From Candidatus Paraluminiphilus aquimaris (GTDB taxonomy: Bacteria; Pseudomonadota; Gammaproteobacteria; Pseudomonadales; Halieaceae), in contig NZ_CP036501.1 of NCBI RefSeq assembly GCF_026230195.1, positions 1 to 64,000 on the forward strand: 64,000 nt of DNA, written 5' to 3'. The translations under genes were made by a program, and so were the position numbers. Under the pieces are notes generated by a model. That model made no database searches and was not told where the DNA came from. It saw nothing but the letters and a program-made list of their open reading frames with translations. Below are positions 46,565-60,914 of this stretch, in pieces (positions within the stretch are counted from its first letter, which is position 1; each line of letters starts with the position of its first letter).

Positions 46565-47278
46565 ATGGCGACGAAGAAATCCTCCGACACCCCGGACGAG
46601 ACTGCAGCAAAAGCGCCTGCAAAGGCGAAGGCGCCCGCAAAGAAAAAGGCAGCAGCAAAAGCTGCGCCCAAGGCAAAAGCTGCGCCCAAGGCAAAAGCTG
46701 CGCCCAAAGCGAAAGCTGCGCCCAAAGCGAAAGCAGAGCCCAAGGCAAAAGCAGAGCCCAAAGCGAAGCCGGCCGCGAAAGCCAAGGCCGCACCTAAAGC
46801 GAAAGCCAAGGCGAGTCCAAAAGCGAAGGCTAATTCCAAAGTGGCAAGAGCTGTGGGTGAAGTCCAAAACTTTGACGACTTTAAGCCATACAAGCCATCG
46901 CGTGGCGAAAGCTACATGAACGATGAACAGCTGGAGCACTTTCGGCAGCTGCTGCTAAGTTGGCGGTCAGACTTGGTAAACGAAGTCACCAAAACTGTCG
47001 GTCACATGAAAGATGAGGCAGCTAACTTCCCTGATCCAGCTGACAGGGCTACTCAGGAAGAAGAGTTTAGTCTTGAGCTCCGGGCGCGAGATCGCGAGCG
47101 TAAGCTCATCAAGAAAATCGACGGCACGCTTGAGCGAATTTCGATTGATGACTACGGTTATTGTGATGCCTGCGGCATTGAGATTGGGGTTAAGCGACTC
47201 GAAGCGAGACCAACTGCCACCTTGTGTATCGACTGTAAAACACTGGCTGAGATCAAGGAGCGCCAGGAGCTCGGCTAA
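46565..47278 (+). CDS. dksA: DksA with long Lys/Ala/Pro-rich N-terminal tail
   Basis: 237 residues, about 85 more than E. coli DksA. Residues 14-92 are an Ala-Lys-Pro repeat (units of APKAKA and EPKAKA) like the tails of histone H1-type bacterial proteins. The DksA core begins about residue 102 ([16 protein letters not shown]) and includes the coiled coil, the DPADRA tip motif (residue ~158) and the zinc finger YCDACG...LCIDCK. The core should bind the RNA polymerase secondary channel with ppGpp. The tail is positively charged and may bind nucleic acid; that is inference. gluQ follows in the usual order. Confidence 0.92.
46651..46825 (+). repeat. In-frame tandem 18-base repeats encoding the DksA tail
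   Basis: Successive copies of GCTGCGCCCAARGCRAAA from about 46661 to 46732, then diverged copies with GCAGAGCCC. Each unit gives six residues (AAPKAK or AEPKAK). The repeated DNA could change copy number by slippage without breaking the frame. Confidence 0.9.
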
Positions 47279-47304: not shown

Positions 47305-48138
47305 ATGTATAAAGGCCGGTTCGCTCCTTCACCAACCGGTCCACTCCATTTCGGCTCTCTAGTCGCCGCCCTCGCAAGCTTCCTCGATGCGCGATATAAC
47401 CAGGGCACGTGGCAGGTGAGACTCGATGATATCGATCCACCCCGACACGATCGATCAAGCTTCCAAACGATTCCCGATTGCCTCGAACAGCATGGCTTGT
47501 TCTGGGACAATGATCTACTTCTGCAGAGTCGCCGGAAAGAAACGCACGAGTTCTACATCAGTAAACTGCGACGTGCAGGGCGCATATTCACTTGCACCTG
47601 CACTCGCACAACGCTGGGCCCCTTAGGGCAGTGCCAATCCGATTGCCCCGAAAAGCGACATGGACAAGGAAGTATTCGGCTTCACTTGAGCGATGCCACT
47701 GAACCGGGCTTCACCGATCTTGTTCTCGGGCCCCAAATACCGACCGTGATGCCCAAAAATTTTGTTATGAAGCGCAGGGACGGGTTGATTGCCTACCAGC
47801 TTGCTACGGCTGTTGATGACATCGACGAAGGTTATACCCACATCATACGAGGCAGCGATTTACTGGACTCCACATTTCGACAAATGGCGATTCATGAGGC
47901 GCTTGGCAAATTATCGCCACGTTATGGCCATTTACCGCTCGTGACTGATTCCCTCGGTAACAAGTTAAGCAAGCAAGCTGGTGCACAGGCTGTCGATGAA
48001 ACGCGCCCGGTCGCTAACTTACGATTAGCGCTCGACTTTCTAAACCAAACAAGCCCGCCCAGCGCTGCCAAATCTGTTGGTGACGTACTCAATTTTGCGA
48101 CCGAACACTGGCGTCTGAATCAACTGAACCAAGGATAA
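47305..48138 (+). CDS. gluQ: Glutamyl-Q tRNA(Asp) synthetase
   Basis: 277 residues. Truncated GluRS-like enzyme that puts glutamate on queuosine at position 34 of tRNA-Asp. The HIGH-like motif FAPSPTGPLHFGSLV, the zinc-site cysteines FTCTCTRTTLGPLGQC and the KMSKS-like NKLSKQAG are all present; no anticodon-binding domain. It lies directly after dksA, as in Pseudomonas and Enterobacteria. Confidence 0.95.
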   Translation: MYKGRFAPSPTGPLHFGSLVAALASFLDARYNQGTWQVRLDDIDPPRHDRSSFQTIPDCLEQHGLFWDNDLLLQSRRKETHEFYISKLRRAGRIFTCTCTRTTLGPLGQCQSDCPEKRHGQGSIRLHLSDATEPGFTDLVLGPQIPTVMPKNFVMKRRDGLIAYQLATAVDDIDEGYTHIIRGSDLLDSTFRQMAIHEALGKLSPRYGHLPLVTDSLGNKLSKQAGAQAVDETRPVANLRLALDFLNQTSPPSAAKSVGDVLNFATEHWRLNQLNQG

Positions 48139-48167: not shown

Positions 48168-48231
48168 CTCAGTGACAAAATCCCCTAAGTTCGTGTTAGC
48201 CTCATCTCCCCGCAAGGAAATGAGACTCGCG

Positions 48232-49614
48232 ATGCTGACTGTGCTTCTGCTGGACGATGATTCTATTAGCGCCACACATACCGCTGACGACTTAACTGCT
48301 GAAGGCTTAAAAGTTATCAAGGCGTCCCCATTCTCGGCCGTAGGGGCAATCAAGTCGGCGGAGAAAGTTGATGTCGCTATTCTCGACCCCGGTCGAAACG
48401 AAACCGGTGCAAGTCAGCTCATAAAGGATCTCTCACCCGTACCCGTGCTCATTCATGCGAAACACGCTTCGCTACGGACGGCTGTCGATCTCATGAAAGC
48501 CGGAGCAAAGGACTACTGGGCAAAGCCTGCATCCATTCGGGAAATGCTACCGGCCATCCGTCGATGTGCTGAGAGTAAAGCCGCAGTCGACACAACGCCA
48601 CAAGCCGTCGAGGCCTTCGTGGGAAAGTCAAAGGGCATGCGTGCCCTCATGAGTCGGGCGAACAAAGCCGCGCAAGCGAGTTCTACGGTTTTAATCATTG
48701 GGGAGACAGGTACGGGAAAAGAGTTGGTTGCCCGTCACATACATCAATCTAGCAAGCGAACGAATAAACCCCTCATCTCTGTGAACTGTGCAGCCATCCC
48801 GGAAACGCTCATTGAGTCAGAGTTATTCGGTTACGAAAAAGGGGCTTTCACCGGCGCTAACGCCCAGCGTGTTGGCCTCATTGAAGCGGCGGACGGCGGC
48901 ACCCTTTTTCTCGATGAAATTGGTGAATTGCCGGCCTCAGCCCAAGCACGTTTGTTACGTTTTATTCAGGAGGGCGAAATTCGTCGCATAGGCTCCGTTG
49001 AGAGCTCGAGCGTTAATGTTCGCCTCATTTGTGCCACGCATAGAAATCTCATTGAACTTGAGAACACCGACGCATTTCGTCGCGATCTTTTTCACCGAAT
49101 TAACGTATTACGGCTCGAGCTACCGCCGTTGCGAGAGCGTGGAGATGACATTCAAGGGTTAACAAACTGGTTGATACGACGGGTGGCCTCTCGCCTTGAG
49201 TACGCAGAAAAGTCGCTTTCTGACGAAGCACGCAGCGCCCTGAACGCGCATGATTGGCCTGGCAATGTGCGAGAACTAGAGCACACAATTGAGAGGGCGC
49301 TCGTTATGTCAGAGGGCGAGGAAATATCACTTGAGGATCTCAGCTTACCCATTACAAGCAAACGAAACAGCGCAATGAGCGCAGCCGGAATTCAGCCGGT
49401 ACCGGTCATCACACCTGACACGAGTCACACGCCCCATGAACCGGGCGCAGAAGAGTTGTCGCTCGAAGATTACTTCCAGCGCTTTGTCCTTGAAAATCAA
49501 GATGCCATGAATGAAACCGAACTTGCACAGAAGTTAGGCATCAGTAGGAAGTGCTTGTGGGAGCGACGCCAGCGGTTTGACCTGCCACGTAAACGCAAGC
49601 GGGGCGCGGCGTAG
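48232..49614 (+). CDS. cbrB: CbrB-like sigma-54-dependent response regulator
   Basis: 460 residues from the ATG at 48232, chosen because the receiver fold starts at once (MLTVLLLDDDS) and AAGGA lies 13 bases upstream; a GTG at 48172 and an ATG at 48220 are alternatives. A receiver domain has the acidic pair and ILDP Asp, but the conserved Thr is Ala (IHAKHAS), while Lys of KP remains. AAA+ domain: Walker A GETGTGKE, sigma-54 contact GAFTGA, Walker B TLFLDEIGE. C-terminal Fis-type helix-turn-helix (LAQKLGISRKCLWERRQR) like Pseudomonas CbrB. Gene order dksA-gluQ-this-pcnB-folK matches Pseudomonas, where cbrA would lie before it; here it is absent. Confidence 0.82.
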   Translation: MLTVLLLDDDSISATHTADDLTAEGLKVIKASPFSAVGAIKSAEKVDVAILDPGRNETGASQLIKDLSPVPVLIHAKHASLRTAVDLMKAGAKDYWAKPASIREMLPAIRRCAESKAAVDTTPQAVEAFVGKSKGMRALMSRANKAAQASSTVLIIGETGTGKELVARHIHQSSKRTNKPLISVNCAAIPETLIESELFGYEKGAFTGANAQRVGLIEAADGGTLFLDEIGELPASAQARLLRFIQEGEIRRIGSVESSSVNVRLICATHRNLIELENTDAFRRDLFHRINVLRLELPPLRERGDDIQGLTNWLIRRVASRLEYAEKSLSDEARSALNAHDWPGNVRELEHTIERALVMSEGEEISLEDLSLPITSKRNSAMSAAGIQPVPVITPDTSHTPHEPGAEELSLEDYFQRFVLENQDAMNETELAQKLGISRKCLWERRQRFDLPRKRKRGAA

Positions 49615-49632
49615 CAAAGAGTGGTCCCATAG

Positions 49633-49661
49633 GTAACAGTTTTTGGTTGATATCAGTAACA
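49633..49661. promoter_or_regulatory. Direct GTAACA repeats upstream of the sigma-54 promoter
   Basis: GTAACA at 49633-49638 and 49656-49661, 23 bases apart, with a related GTAATA at 49667. They lie 74-102 bases before the proposed -24 element, the usual zone for an activator site. I recall Pseudomonas CbrB sites being built from TGTTAC/GTAACA half-sites, but from memory only. Confidence 0.35.
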
Positions 49662-49734
49662 CTTCTGTAATATTTGCCATCGCCAGACCGCACAAAATTG
49701 TACAAATCATTGTTTTTGCTAATTATTTTTTCGC

Positions 49735-49750
49735 TGGCATAGCAAATGCA
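49735..49750 (+). promoter_or_regulatory. Sigma-54 (RpoN) -24/-12 promoter
   Basis: TGGCATAGCAAATGCA: GG at 49736-49737 and GC at 49748-49749 with the required ten-base gap. It differs from the TGGCAYR-N4-TTGCW consensus at one conserved base. It faces the pcnB side, sits in an AT-rich gap of 295 bases and directly follows a gene for a sigma-54 activator. Predicted start near 49761. Confidence 0.7.
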
Positions 49751-49760
49751 ACAATTGGGA

Positions 49761-49853
49761 CAGAGCCAAAATAAAAATAAGCGGCCGAATAAAAATAATA
49801 TGTGTCACTACGGACCTGGGCGGGGAAGGCAACTTCCCCCAGTTTCTTTATTT
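49761..49853 (+). ncRNA. Candidate CrcZ-like small RNA
   Basis: Proposed transcript of about 93 nt from the sigma-54 promoter to the hairpin terminator. It carries two identical A-rich elements AATAAAAATAA (49770-49780 and 49788-49798), each containing an AANAANAA unit of the kind bound by Hfq/Crc. Position (between cbrB and pcnB) and promoter type are those of Pseudomonas CrcZ, which soaks up Hfq-Crc to relieve carbon catabolite repression. It is much shorter than CrcZ (about 400 nt). No reading frame of note. Whether this organism has Crc is not visible here. Confidence 0.55.
49816..49853 (+). terminator. Factor-independent terminator of the candidate small RNA
   Basis: CTGGG (49816-49820) pairs with CCCAG (49838-49842), and GGAAG (49824-49828) with CTTCC (49833-49837). 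A three-base bulge on the left and a GCAA tetraloop complete the hairpin, followed by TTTCTTTATTT. It ends 57 bases before the pcnB start, so pcnB needs readthrough or its own promoter. Confidence 0.8.
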
Positions 49854-49909
49854 CCCTCTTGAGCACTTCGCTTGGTAAACTGCCACCTTCACTGCTGGGA
49901 TGAAGCACG

Positions 49910-51169
49910 TTGCACCAAATCGACGCTCAAAGTCTTATAGACCCCACTGCGCTATCAAAGTCTGCCGTCGCCGTCGTCGCGCGTCTGTGTGAGAACAATC
50001 ACAGCGCATTCATTGTCGGTGGCGCAGTCCGAGATTTATTGCTGGGTAAGCGGCCCAAAGATTTTGATGTAGCCACCGACGCGACTCCCGAGCAAATCGT
50101 GGCCCTTTTCAGAGGCGCGCGAATTATCGGAAGACGGTTCCAAATCGTGCATGTCCGGATGGGTCGCGAGATAATTGAAGTCACGACCTTTCGGGGGCAT
50201 CACGGGGGGGACACCTCTAAGATTGCTGCTAAAAGCAATAAAGGCCTACTCCTTCGCGACAACGTCTACGGCACGCTCGATCAAGACGCGGCGCGCAGGG
50301 ATCTCACAATAAACGCACTTTACTTGGATCCTTTGCAGCACCTTATTCTTGACGACCTCAATGGGATTGAGGACATCAAGAAACGCACCATCCGAATCAT
50401 CGGTGACCCTGCAGGTCGCTACCGCGAAGATCCAGTTCGTATGTTGAGGGTGGCGCGATTTGCTGCAAAACTCGGATTCAGCGTCGACCCAGCAACGCAA
50501 GAAGCCATCGGTGAATGCCGCCACCTTTTAGCGGATATCCCCTCGGCACGCCTGTTTGACGAAGCTATTAAACTGTTCATGTCGGGTCACGCAGCCGAGA
50601 CGTTTGAGCAATTGCGTCGTCATGATCTACTCGAGACTCTGTTCCCAGAAGCTGTGGATGCTTTAGATCTCGAAGGAGCACAAGAGCTAATTACTCAAGC
50701 CATGAAGAACACTGACGGCAGAATTGCTCGCGACAAGCCCGTCACGCCAGCATTTCTTTTCGCAGCCCTATTGTGGCCTGCCGTTGCTCTGCGAAGTGAT
50801 GAAATTGTCCGCGCGGGCAACGCCGATGGATCACCCGTTAATGCTGCTGGACAAGAAATACTTGCTCGTTCACTTCAGCGCGTATCCATTCCAAAACGCT
50901 TTTCGATTCCAATGCGGGAAATCTGGGAACTCCAGCCACGATTAGATAAGTGTTCACCGAAACGAGCCAAATCTATTTTGGCGCTGCGACGTTTTCGAGC
51001 GGCCTTTGATCTGCTGCTATTGCGTCGTGACCAAGACGAGGAGCTCAGTGGCGCGGTCAAATTCTGGGAGGAACAACAACAGTTGTTTCCAGAAATAGTC
51101 GGCAGCCAACCACCCACTGAGATACCCAAAAAACGGCGACGACCGCGCAGACGAAAACCCGAGCAATGA
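49910..51169 (+). CDS. pcnB: Poly(A) polymerase I
   Basis: 419 residues. Adds poly(A) tails that mark RNA for decay. Nucleotidyltransferase motif FIVGGAVRDLLLGKRPKDFDVATDA with the catalytic Asp pair; IGRRFQIVHVRMGREIIEVTTF and the RRDLTINALYLDP block distinguish it from CCA-adding enzymes. Basic C-terminus KKRRRPRRRKPEQ. Start is a TTG. Its stop overlaps folK by four bases (ATGA). Confidence 0.93.
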   Translation: MHQIDAQSLIDPTALSKSAVAVVARLCENNHSAFIVGGAVRDLLLGKRPKDFDVATDATPEQIVALFRGARIIGRRFQIVHVRMGREIIEVTTFRGHHGGDTSKIAAKSNKGLLLRDNVYGTLDQDAARRDLTINALYLDPLQHLILDDLNGIEDIKKRTIRIIGDPAGRYREDPVRMLRVARFAAKLGFSVDPATQEAIGECRHLLADIPSARLFDEAIKLFMSGHAAETFEQLRRHDLLETLFPEAVDALDLEGAQELITQAMKNTDGRIARDKPVTPAFLFAALLWPAVALRSDEIVRAGNADGSPVNAAGQEILARSLQRVSIPKRFSIPMREIWELQPRLDKCSPKRAKSILALRRFRAAFDLLLLRRDQDEELSGAVKFWEEQQQLFPEIVGSQPPTEIPKKRRRPRRRKPEQ

Positions 51170-60585: not shown

Positions 60586-60855
60586 TTATCGGCGCAAGCC
60601 AAGACGCTTAATCAACGATGCGTACCGACTGGTATCCTTGCGCTTCAGGTAATCCAACAGTTTACGGCGCTGGTTAACCATGCGAATGAGACCACGACGT
60701 GAATGGTGATCCTGCGCATGCTCTTTAAAGTGCTGCTGTAATTGCTCAATATTTGCGGTCAACAAGGCAACCTGTACTTCCGGTGAACCTGTGTCACCCT
60801 CTGCCTGCTTATAGTCTTCTACGATTTGAGCTTTTCGTGCTGCATCTAGTGCCAT
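60586..60855 (-). CDS. rpsO: 30S ribosomal protein S15
   Basis: 89 residues, exact family length. [55 protein letters not shown]. Upstream of pnp, as is usual. Confidence 0.98.
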
Positions 60856-60914
60856 GATATTTCTCCAACCTGCGTTACGCTTCGCCCACCCGTGCAGGTT
60901 TACAGGGGGGTTGA

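Follow-up and report, generated by a model that had tools for sequence, protein, structure and literature searches.

The gap between cbrB and pcnB in the window, by which we mean the whole analyzed stretch of 64,000 nucleotides (G000:C1:1-64000, from a Luminiphilus-type member of the Halieaceae whose 2.72 Mb genome is one contig), most probably encodes a free-standing CrcZ-like decoy RNA, predicted to be driven by CbrB and sigma-54 and to titrate Hfq/Crc without control by CbrA. We put the probability of this reading at roughly 0.8. In Pseudomonas, CrcZ lifts carbon repression by soaking up Hfq. An earlier note on this DNA had proposed a compact RNA of this type outside Pseudomonas, and we found the proposal to be well supported by conservation, by the operator and promoter, and by a genome that encodes Hfq, RpoN, and a Crc-like protein. 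As far as conservation goes the RNA is real, and the stronger point is that, judging from the genomes compared, it appears to have persisted after its sensor kinase was lost.

The genes run in the order dksA, gluQ, cbrB, the gap, pcnB, and folK. gluQ (GluQRS; 47305-48138, + strand; TIGR03838, 280.2 versus 276.7 bits) lies immediately 5′ of cbrB, and many relatives have cbrA between the two. The reading frame of the CbrB-like sigma-54 activator spans 48172-49614 (+ strand) from a GTG at 48172, although translation may actually begin at ATG 48220 or 48232. Its product scored 233.7 bits against Pfam Sigma54_activat, with the AAA+ domain intact, and 31.9 bits against Response_reg, barely above the cut-off of 30.2, with the receiver domain altered. 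We use the name cbrB because of synteny and because relatives keep cbrA adjacent to the gene. On the other side, pcnB (49910-51169, + strand) lies 3′ of the terminator and scored 451.5 bits with TIGR01942, over the curated cut-off of 305.65. The placement of the RNA between cbrB and pcnB, as first proposed, holds.

Upon analysis of the gap we found two CbrB-type half-sites of sequence GTAACA on the + strand, R1 at 49633-49638 and R2 at 49656-49661, spaced 23 bp start to start. This pair, which the earlier note had not mentioned, gave one match against a mean of 0.00 in 100 shuffles, and 5 of the 6 columns of R1 and all 6 of R2 are invariant in 49 loci of the genus. The half-sites fit the CbrB subsites TGTTAC/GTAACA of P. 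putida, as given in PMC6296734. The forward subsite F1 of Pseudomonas was looked for in the window gap and not found; R1 and R2 are present and conserved. Farther downstream, CAAATCATTGTTT at 49703-49715 (+ strand) is an IHF-like site with one mismatch to YAANNNNTTGATW, which we take to be the IHF consensus and used to call the site. Its TTGTTT portion is partly conserved in the 49 genus loci, and IHF-like sites with 0-1 mismatch occurred at 69 of 111 loci as compared with ∼17 in base shuffles. The GG-N10-GC promoter described in the earlier note was confirmed as TGGCATAGCAAATGCA at 49735-49750 (+ strand), a predicted sigma-54 promoter whose match is present in 49/49 genus loci with its TGGCA and TGC (8 columns) invariant. 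The pattern TGGCAY-N6-TGCW occurs 3 times in the window where 0.70 would be expected, a count that 5 of 100 shuffles attain as well; the promoter pattern by itself is a weak signal.

The predicted RNA is ∼93 nt long and occupies 49761-49853 (+ strand), the start being placed 12 nt past the C of the -12 GC and the end likewise being a prediction. Our covariance model matched it at 49759-49851 with an E of 3.3e-17, a value to be read with the window itself in the training set. Two identical A-rich elements, AATAAAAATAA at 49770-49780 and again at 49788-49798 (both + strand), are just as previously noted; both are conserved and unpaired in the predicted fold, and the first, like the second, is a predicted site for the distal face of Hfq. 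The pattern AAYAANAAYAA occurs 3 times in the window versus 0.30 expected, a count reached in 0 of 100 shuffles. The ACGGACCTGG element follows at 49810-49819 (+ strand), just 5′ of an intrinsic terminator at 49822-49853 (+ strand). The terminator consists of the hairpin GGGGAAGGCAACTTCCCC (49822-49839), with 7 pairs unchanged in 24/24 sequences, and of CAGTTTCTTTATTT up to 49853. The hairpin and end point of the original description thus stand, and its unbroken T run does not, since the tail is T-rich.

The predicted fold was no more stable than shuffles (z -0.77), none of the 10 pairs of the consensus fold covaried, and an Rfam search gave no family at gathering within the gap. We rejected a structured RNA or riboswitch on the latter two results. 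Because the fold resembles shuffles and 0/10 pairs covary, the RNA is supported by sequence conservation rather than by structure. A fold no more stable than shuffles and without covariation is what would be expected of a decoy, and structure adds no support.

Conservation was assessed by aligning the gaps of the 49 genus loci, a set that leaves out the RNA-positive genomes G010, G030, and G393, in which cbrB is cut by the contig end. (The locus set as a whole is without L083, whose match was not at its listed position, and L109, L111, and L113 were removed as duplicates.) R1, R2, TGGCA-N7-TGC, the A-rich units, a GGCC, ACGGACCTGG, and the hairpin were conserved. Promoter, half-site, and A-rich elements are present in 49/49 loci while the spacers drift. 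We scored each region as the share of loci carrying the window's letter where that letter is the commonest, and as 0 elsewhere. On this scale conserved regions reached 0.88-1.0 and intervening stretches 0.25-0.35; the promoter scored just 0.64 because its middle is free. Within the RNA, 48 of 93 columns are invariant, and the 56 bp between the terminator and pcnB are unconserved (0.25). Conservation over the 49 loci led us to reject a chance match. It also agrees with what the earlier note had anticipated for orthologous gaps, namely that promoter, both A-rich units, and hairpin would be kept, and loss of the promoter or A-rich elements was not seen in these 49 loci.

A covariance search, likewise suggested at the outset, used a model built from 24 genus RNAs at a threshold of E ≤ 0.01, with the training genomes among those searched. 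It returned a single match per genome in 127/140 family genomes, including 52/57 in the genus. Of the five genus genomes missed, four are incomplete assemblies in which pcnB gave no match at E ≤ 1e-40; G012, the fifth, has a contig that starts within the gap. The remaining family genomes lacked a match in 8 of 83 cases; among these, the gap of G257 has the promoter and A-rich runs, and G333 has an A-rich stretch. Across the order, the same narrow model matched in 34/293 genomes.

When compared with CrcZ (Rfam RF01675), the window RNA shares the cbrB-pcnB gap, the CbrB half-sites, the GG-N10-GC promoter, the putative A-rich Hfq motifs, and a terminator. It differs in length (∼93 nt versus a model of 398 positions) and in having two A-rich runs where CrcZ has several. 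The Rfam model aligned to 49754-49856 over positions 272-380 with 10 bits (E 1.3), and since this is far under the gathering cut-off of 95 we rejected membership in RF01675. G016, the sole other genus member in the sample scanned with this model, gave 23.8 bits (E 3.1e-4; positions 276-379), and across the order 59/293 genomes matched at E ≤ 0.001, with 14 above the cut-off. In design the window RNA thus resembles CrcZ, and its position makes homology to CrcZ probable. CrcY and CrcX are CbrB/sigma-54-driven A-rich decoys at other Pseudomonas loci. Unlike these extra copies, the window type gives one match per genome. CrcY is also treated in PMC6296734. In Acinetobacter baumannii, sRNA99, found with Hfq and carrying three potential AAN motifs, was likened to CrcZ by its authors (PMC12802169); "pcnB" is absent from the main text of that source. 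Among the matches listed in our literature search, which left most subscription papers outside, CrcZ in Halieaceae or Luminiphilus was unreported.

Where the window departs from the Pseudomonas locus is in the regulator. A CbrB-type activator sits in the same gene neighborhood as in the CbrA-CbrB system, whereas cbrA, the gene of the partner kinase, was not found in the window genome and the receiver domain is altered. The earlier note, which does not mention the lack of cbrA, needs correcting here: a two-component regulator of the Pseudomonas type does not apply. With the CbrA of a family member as query (E ≤ 1e-40), cbrA was found in 0 of 57 genus genomes, the window genome included, and in 77 of 83 other family genomes. 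Within these 77, G341 matches transporter-like paralogues alone and four genomes of genus g28 match by the kinase half alone. At two g28 loci (L151 and L152) we observed frames of ∼400 aa covering query residues 632-982, that is, only the kinase half of CbrA, next to a canonical CbrB receiver. In genus loci extending that far, gluQ and cbrB are directly adjacent. Relocation of cbrA within the genome was rejected, as neither the genus nor G361 yielded a match at E ≤ 1e-40; in families f13, f15, and f27 the check covered the locus only.

We defined a canonical receiver as one with the acidic pair, Asp, Thr/Ser, and Lys, and tabulated it in the 121 genomes with a known upstream gene; the other 7 of 128 (2 canonical, 5 not) were left out. 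The signature ED/D/T/K was present in all 53 loci with cbrA (two truncated, and often with just the cbrA end inside the fetched stretch), and a canonical receiver was seen in none of the 68 where the locus lacks cbrA (Fisher p 1e-35, kinship ignored). The acceptor in these 68 is Asp in 21 (the 17-genome clade of the window among them), Glu in 25, Gly in 18, and Asn in 1, and in 3 the open frame lacks the receiver domain. A quick tree of CbrB minus the receiver (92 rows, long branches present, the genus thinned to 19 of 48 rows) needed 4 changes, with both traits identical in all rows. Its supported branches force 2 changes, and an independent-pairs sign test gave p 0.5, a test that cannot reach significance here. 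Alteration of the receiver goes together with loss of cbrA, and the independent events behind this pattern are few (2-4).

The same RNA could be made under a CbrB that is still controlled by phosphorylation, with acetyl phosphate or some kinase besides CbrA as the donor, and of the competing explanations this one survives best, although we regard it as fairly unlikely. The clade of 17 genomes that includes the window has the receiver DD/D/A/K, in which the acidic pair, the Lys, and an Asp at the acceptor position are kept, and the Response_reg score does pass the Pfam cut-off; phosphorylation by another donor is accordingly possible for this clade. Against it, all 17 have Ala in place of the switch Thr, and the acceptor in other genus clades is Glu (13 genomes) or Gly (18 genomes and a further one whose upstream gene is unknown). 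In some receivers Glu can act as a mimic of phosphorylated Asp, and constitutive CbrB activity is therefore plausible for the Glu clade. Since cbrA was not found and the receiver is altered, the input to CbrB must differ or be absent, and for the same reasons synthesis of the decoy RNA would no longer be set by CbrA phosphorylation.

Rather improbable, in our view, is a base-pairing sRNA in which ACGGACCTGG is the seed for mRNAs and the A-rich stretches merely load the RNA on Hfq. The element is among the best conserved parts of the RNA (9/10 columns invariant in 49 loci), and GACCTGG..GGGG, conserved just before the terminator, is present in 89/128 loci of many families and would be needless for a pure decoy. 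Even a relaxed GACCTGG..GGGG is missing, though, from 33/128 loci, the Pseudomonas-type L103 among them. A cis-acting leader or attenuator of pcnB in place of a free RNA is much less probable still. The element does lie directly 5′ of pcnB in the same direction with a hairpin at its end, but this hairpin is terminator-like with a T-rich tail, the 56 bp that follow have drifted, the consensus fold is without a covarying pair, and the CbrB-type operator and the CrcZ precedent favor a free RNA. We rejected a small protein as scarcely credible. In the window clade an ATG does come after A-rich element 2, but L012 and L015-L019 lack a start codon there, and in its vicinity and beyond it the alignment is interrupted by gaps of one and two bases.

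A decoy RNA would require its protein partners, and the window genome encodes Hfq, RpoN, and a Crc-like protein (L117). The best solved match of the latter is 4jg3, "Catabolite repression control protein" (185.6 bits, E 9.5e-54), a structure presumably from P. aeruginosa, with 2myi, "Exodeoxyribonuclease III," close behind (175.9 bits). We rejected identification of L117 as exonuclease III, since the genome has another paralogue that is of the exonuclease type (L115, with 2jc5 as its best match) and L117 lies closer to Crc. The residues QET, CADWN, LDYM, and SDH of the paralogue read QDT, CGGWE, TDTQ, and SSH in the Crc-like protein. This comparison concerns L115 and L117, with a third family match, L116, outside it.

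Possible targets were sampled in 367 genes predicted with a simple gene caller over 464 kb (the window plus 20 stretches of 20 kb). At -30 to -16 from the chosen start, AANAANAA had 27 sites in 19 of the 367 genes, with 27 sites in the 105 nt upstream. The resulting 7.0-fold density was the highest of 28 motifs of equal composition (1.2-5.6 for the other 27), and by genes the lead is small (19 versus 17 for the next motif). Within -36 to -8, 21 genes carried the motif as compared with 7.9 ± 2.3 in 100 shuffles. The enrichment partly reflects general A-richness, and because the gene caller is simple we take it as supporting evidence only. A Pfam scan of 20 of the 24 genes with AANAANAA at -30 to +15 returned catabolic-looking products (two sulfatases, an amidase, an aldehyde dehydrogenase, a class III CoA-transferase, a Rieske oxygenase, a class II aldolase, and a GH3) as well as the non-catabolic ClpX and RNase PH, and two genes were without a Pfam family at E ≤ 1e-8.

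For the decoy reading, we propose that sigma-54 RNA polymerase would start the RNA near 49761, with CbrB on the two GTAACA half-sites driving open-complex formation and DNA bending at the IHF-like site assisting. The RNA would terminate at the hairpin, and its two A-rich stretches would occupy the distal face of Hfq, with Crc. Occupied Hfq/Crc would then free mRNAs, many of them catabolic, that bear the same motif beside their start codons. CbrB would be either constitutively active or answering another input. Transcription, CbrB binding, Hfq/Crc binding, release of target mRNAs, and relief of repression are steps that we infer.

Similar loci occur well beyond the genus. According to PMC8871633 and PMC6296734, CbrAB is unique to Pseudomonadaceae, and no genera but Pseudomonas and Azotobacter have had a cbrA-cbrB-crcZ arrangement described. 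We found a CbrB-type protein (E ≤ 1e-100) in 246/293 sampled genomes of the order, with synteny viewed at a subset of loci. On the level of sequence and synteny, this appears to contradict the first of these statements. The combination of promoter, half-site, and A-rich run occurred at 111/128 loci, 49/49 in the genus and 62/79 outside it, where it likewise lies between cbrB and pcnB. The latter count comes from a combined test without a shuffle control on nonrandom loci, 30 of them the best-scoring CbrB matches and 30 picked, partly for small genomes. The arrangement is thus present in this group, as had been suggested, and it is not peculiar to the group. Among loci without cbrA that passed the combined test, 59/63 have two A-rich runs within 160 nt. 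The test failed at 17/128 loci, L197 and L198 (family f42) included; there cbrA and cbrB are canonical, and the gap of ∼158 bp from cbrB to the pcnB match has no RNA candidate.

Three loci of family f13 (L204, L206, and L209) have CbrB-like frames of ∼370 aa without a receiver domain, with promoter, half-site, and A-rich run still found downstream. Receiver remnants may lie upstream, because two of the three have stops within the match. In family f27 (L216 and L217), the cbrB-pcnB gap has, behind TGGCACAAC(A/T)AATGCC, a candidate RNA that is long and A-rich and includes several AATAAAAATAA-type units; the CbrB receiver is degenerate and there is no cbrA at the locus. At L223 and L224 (G334 and G333; genus g120 of the same family as the window), neither cbrB nor cbrA is present at the locus between gluQ and pcnB, and two A-rich runs and a hairpin with a T-rich tail remain. 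By eye, we noticed no GG-N10-GC promoter at these two loci, and the upstream site of L223 is TTGACA-N17-TATTAA-like.

We give even odds to a broader reading, in which CbrA-CbrB-CrcZ would be an ancestral module for much of the order, one that several lineages would have dismantled sensor-first, leaving CrcZ as a standing titrator of Hfq/Crc. The kinase would have been lost, and the receiver would have changed to a Glu, Asn, or Gly form or gone missing; the g120 locus would also have lost cbrB and the sigma-54 promoter, with a short A-rich RNA candidate persisting. If true, CrcZ was formerly a derepressor controlled by nutrient signals, and relief of carbon repression by an A-rich decoy is an old device across the order that reaches ocean bacteria. 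Such a decoy could shrink to ∼93 nt with two sites, and natural lineages would be running the RNA without the sensor kinase, making them natural experiments in how far the pathway can be pared down.

Elsewhere in the window, we observed that DksA (46565-47278) has an N-terminal extension of ∼85-100 residues rich in Ala/Lys/Pro repeats, and that a ribosomal S15 leader (RF00114) lies at 60799-60913 on the - strand (44.7 versus 39.5 bits).
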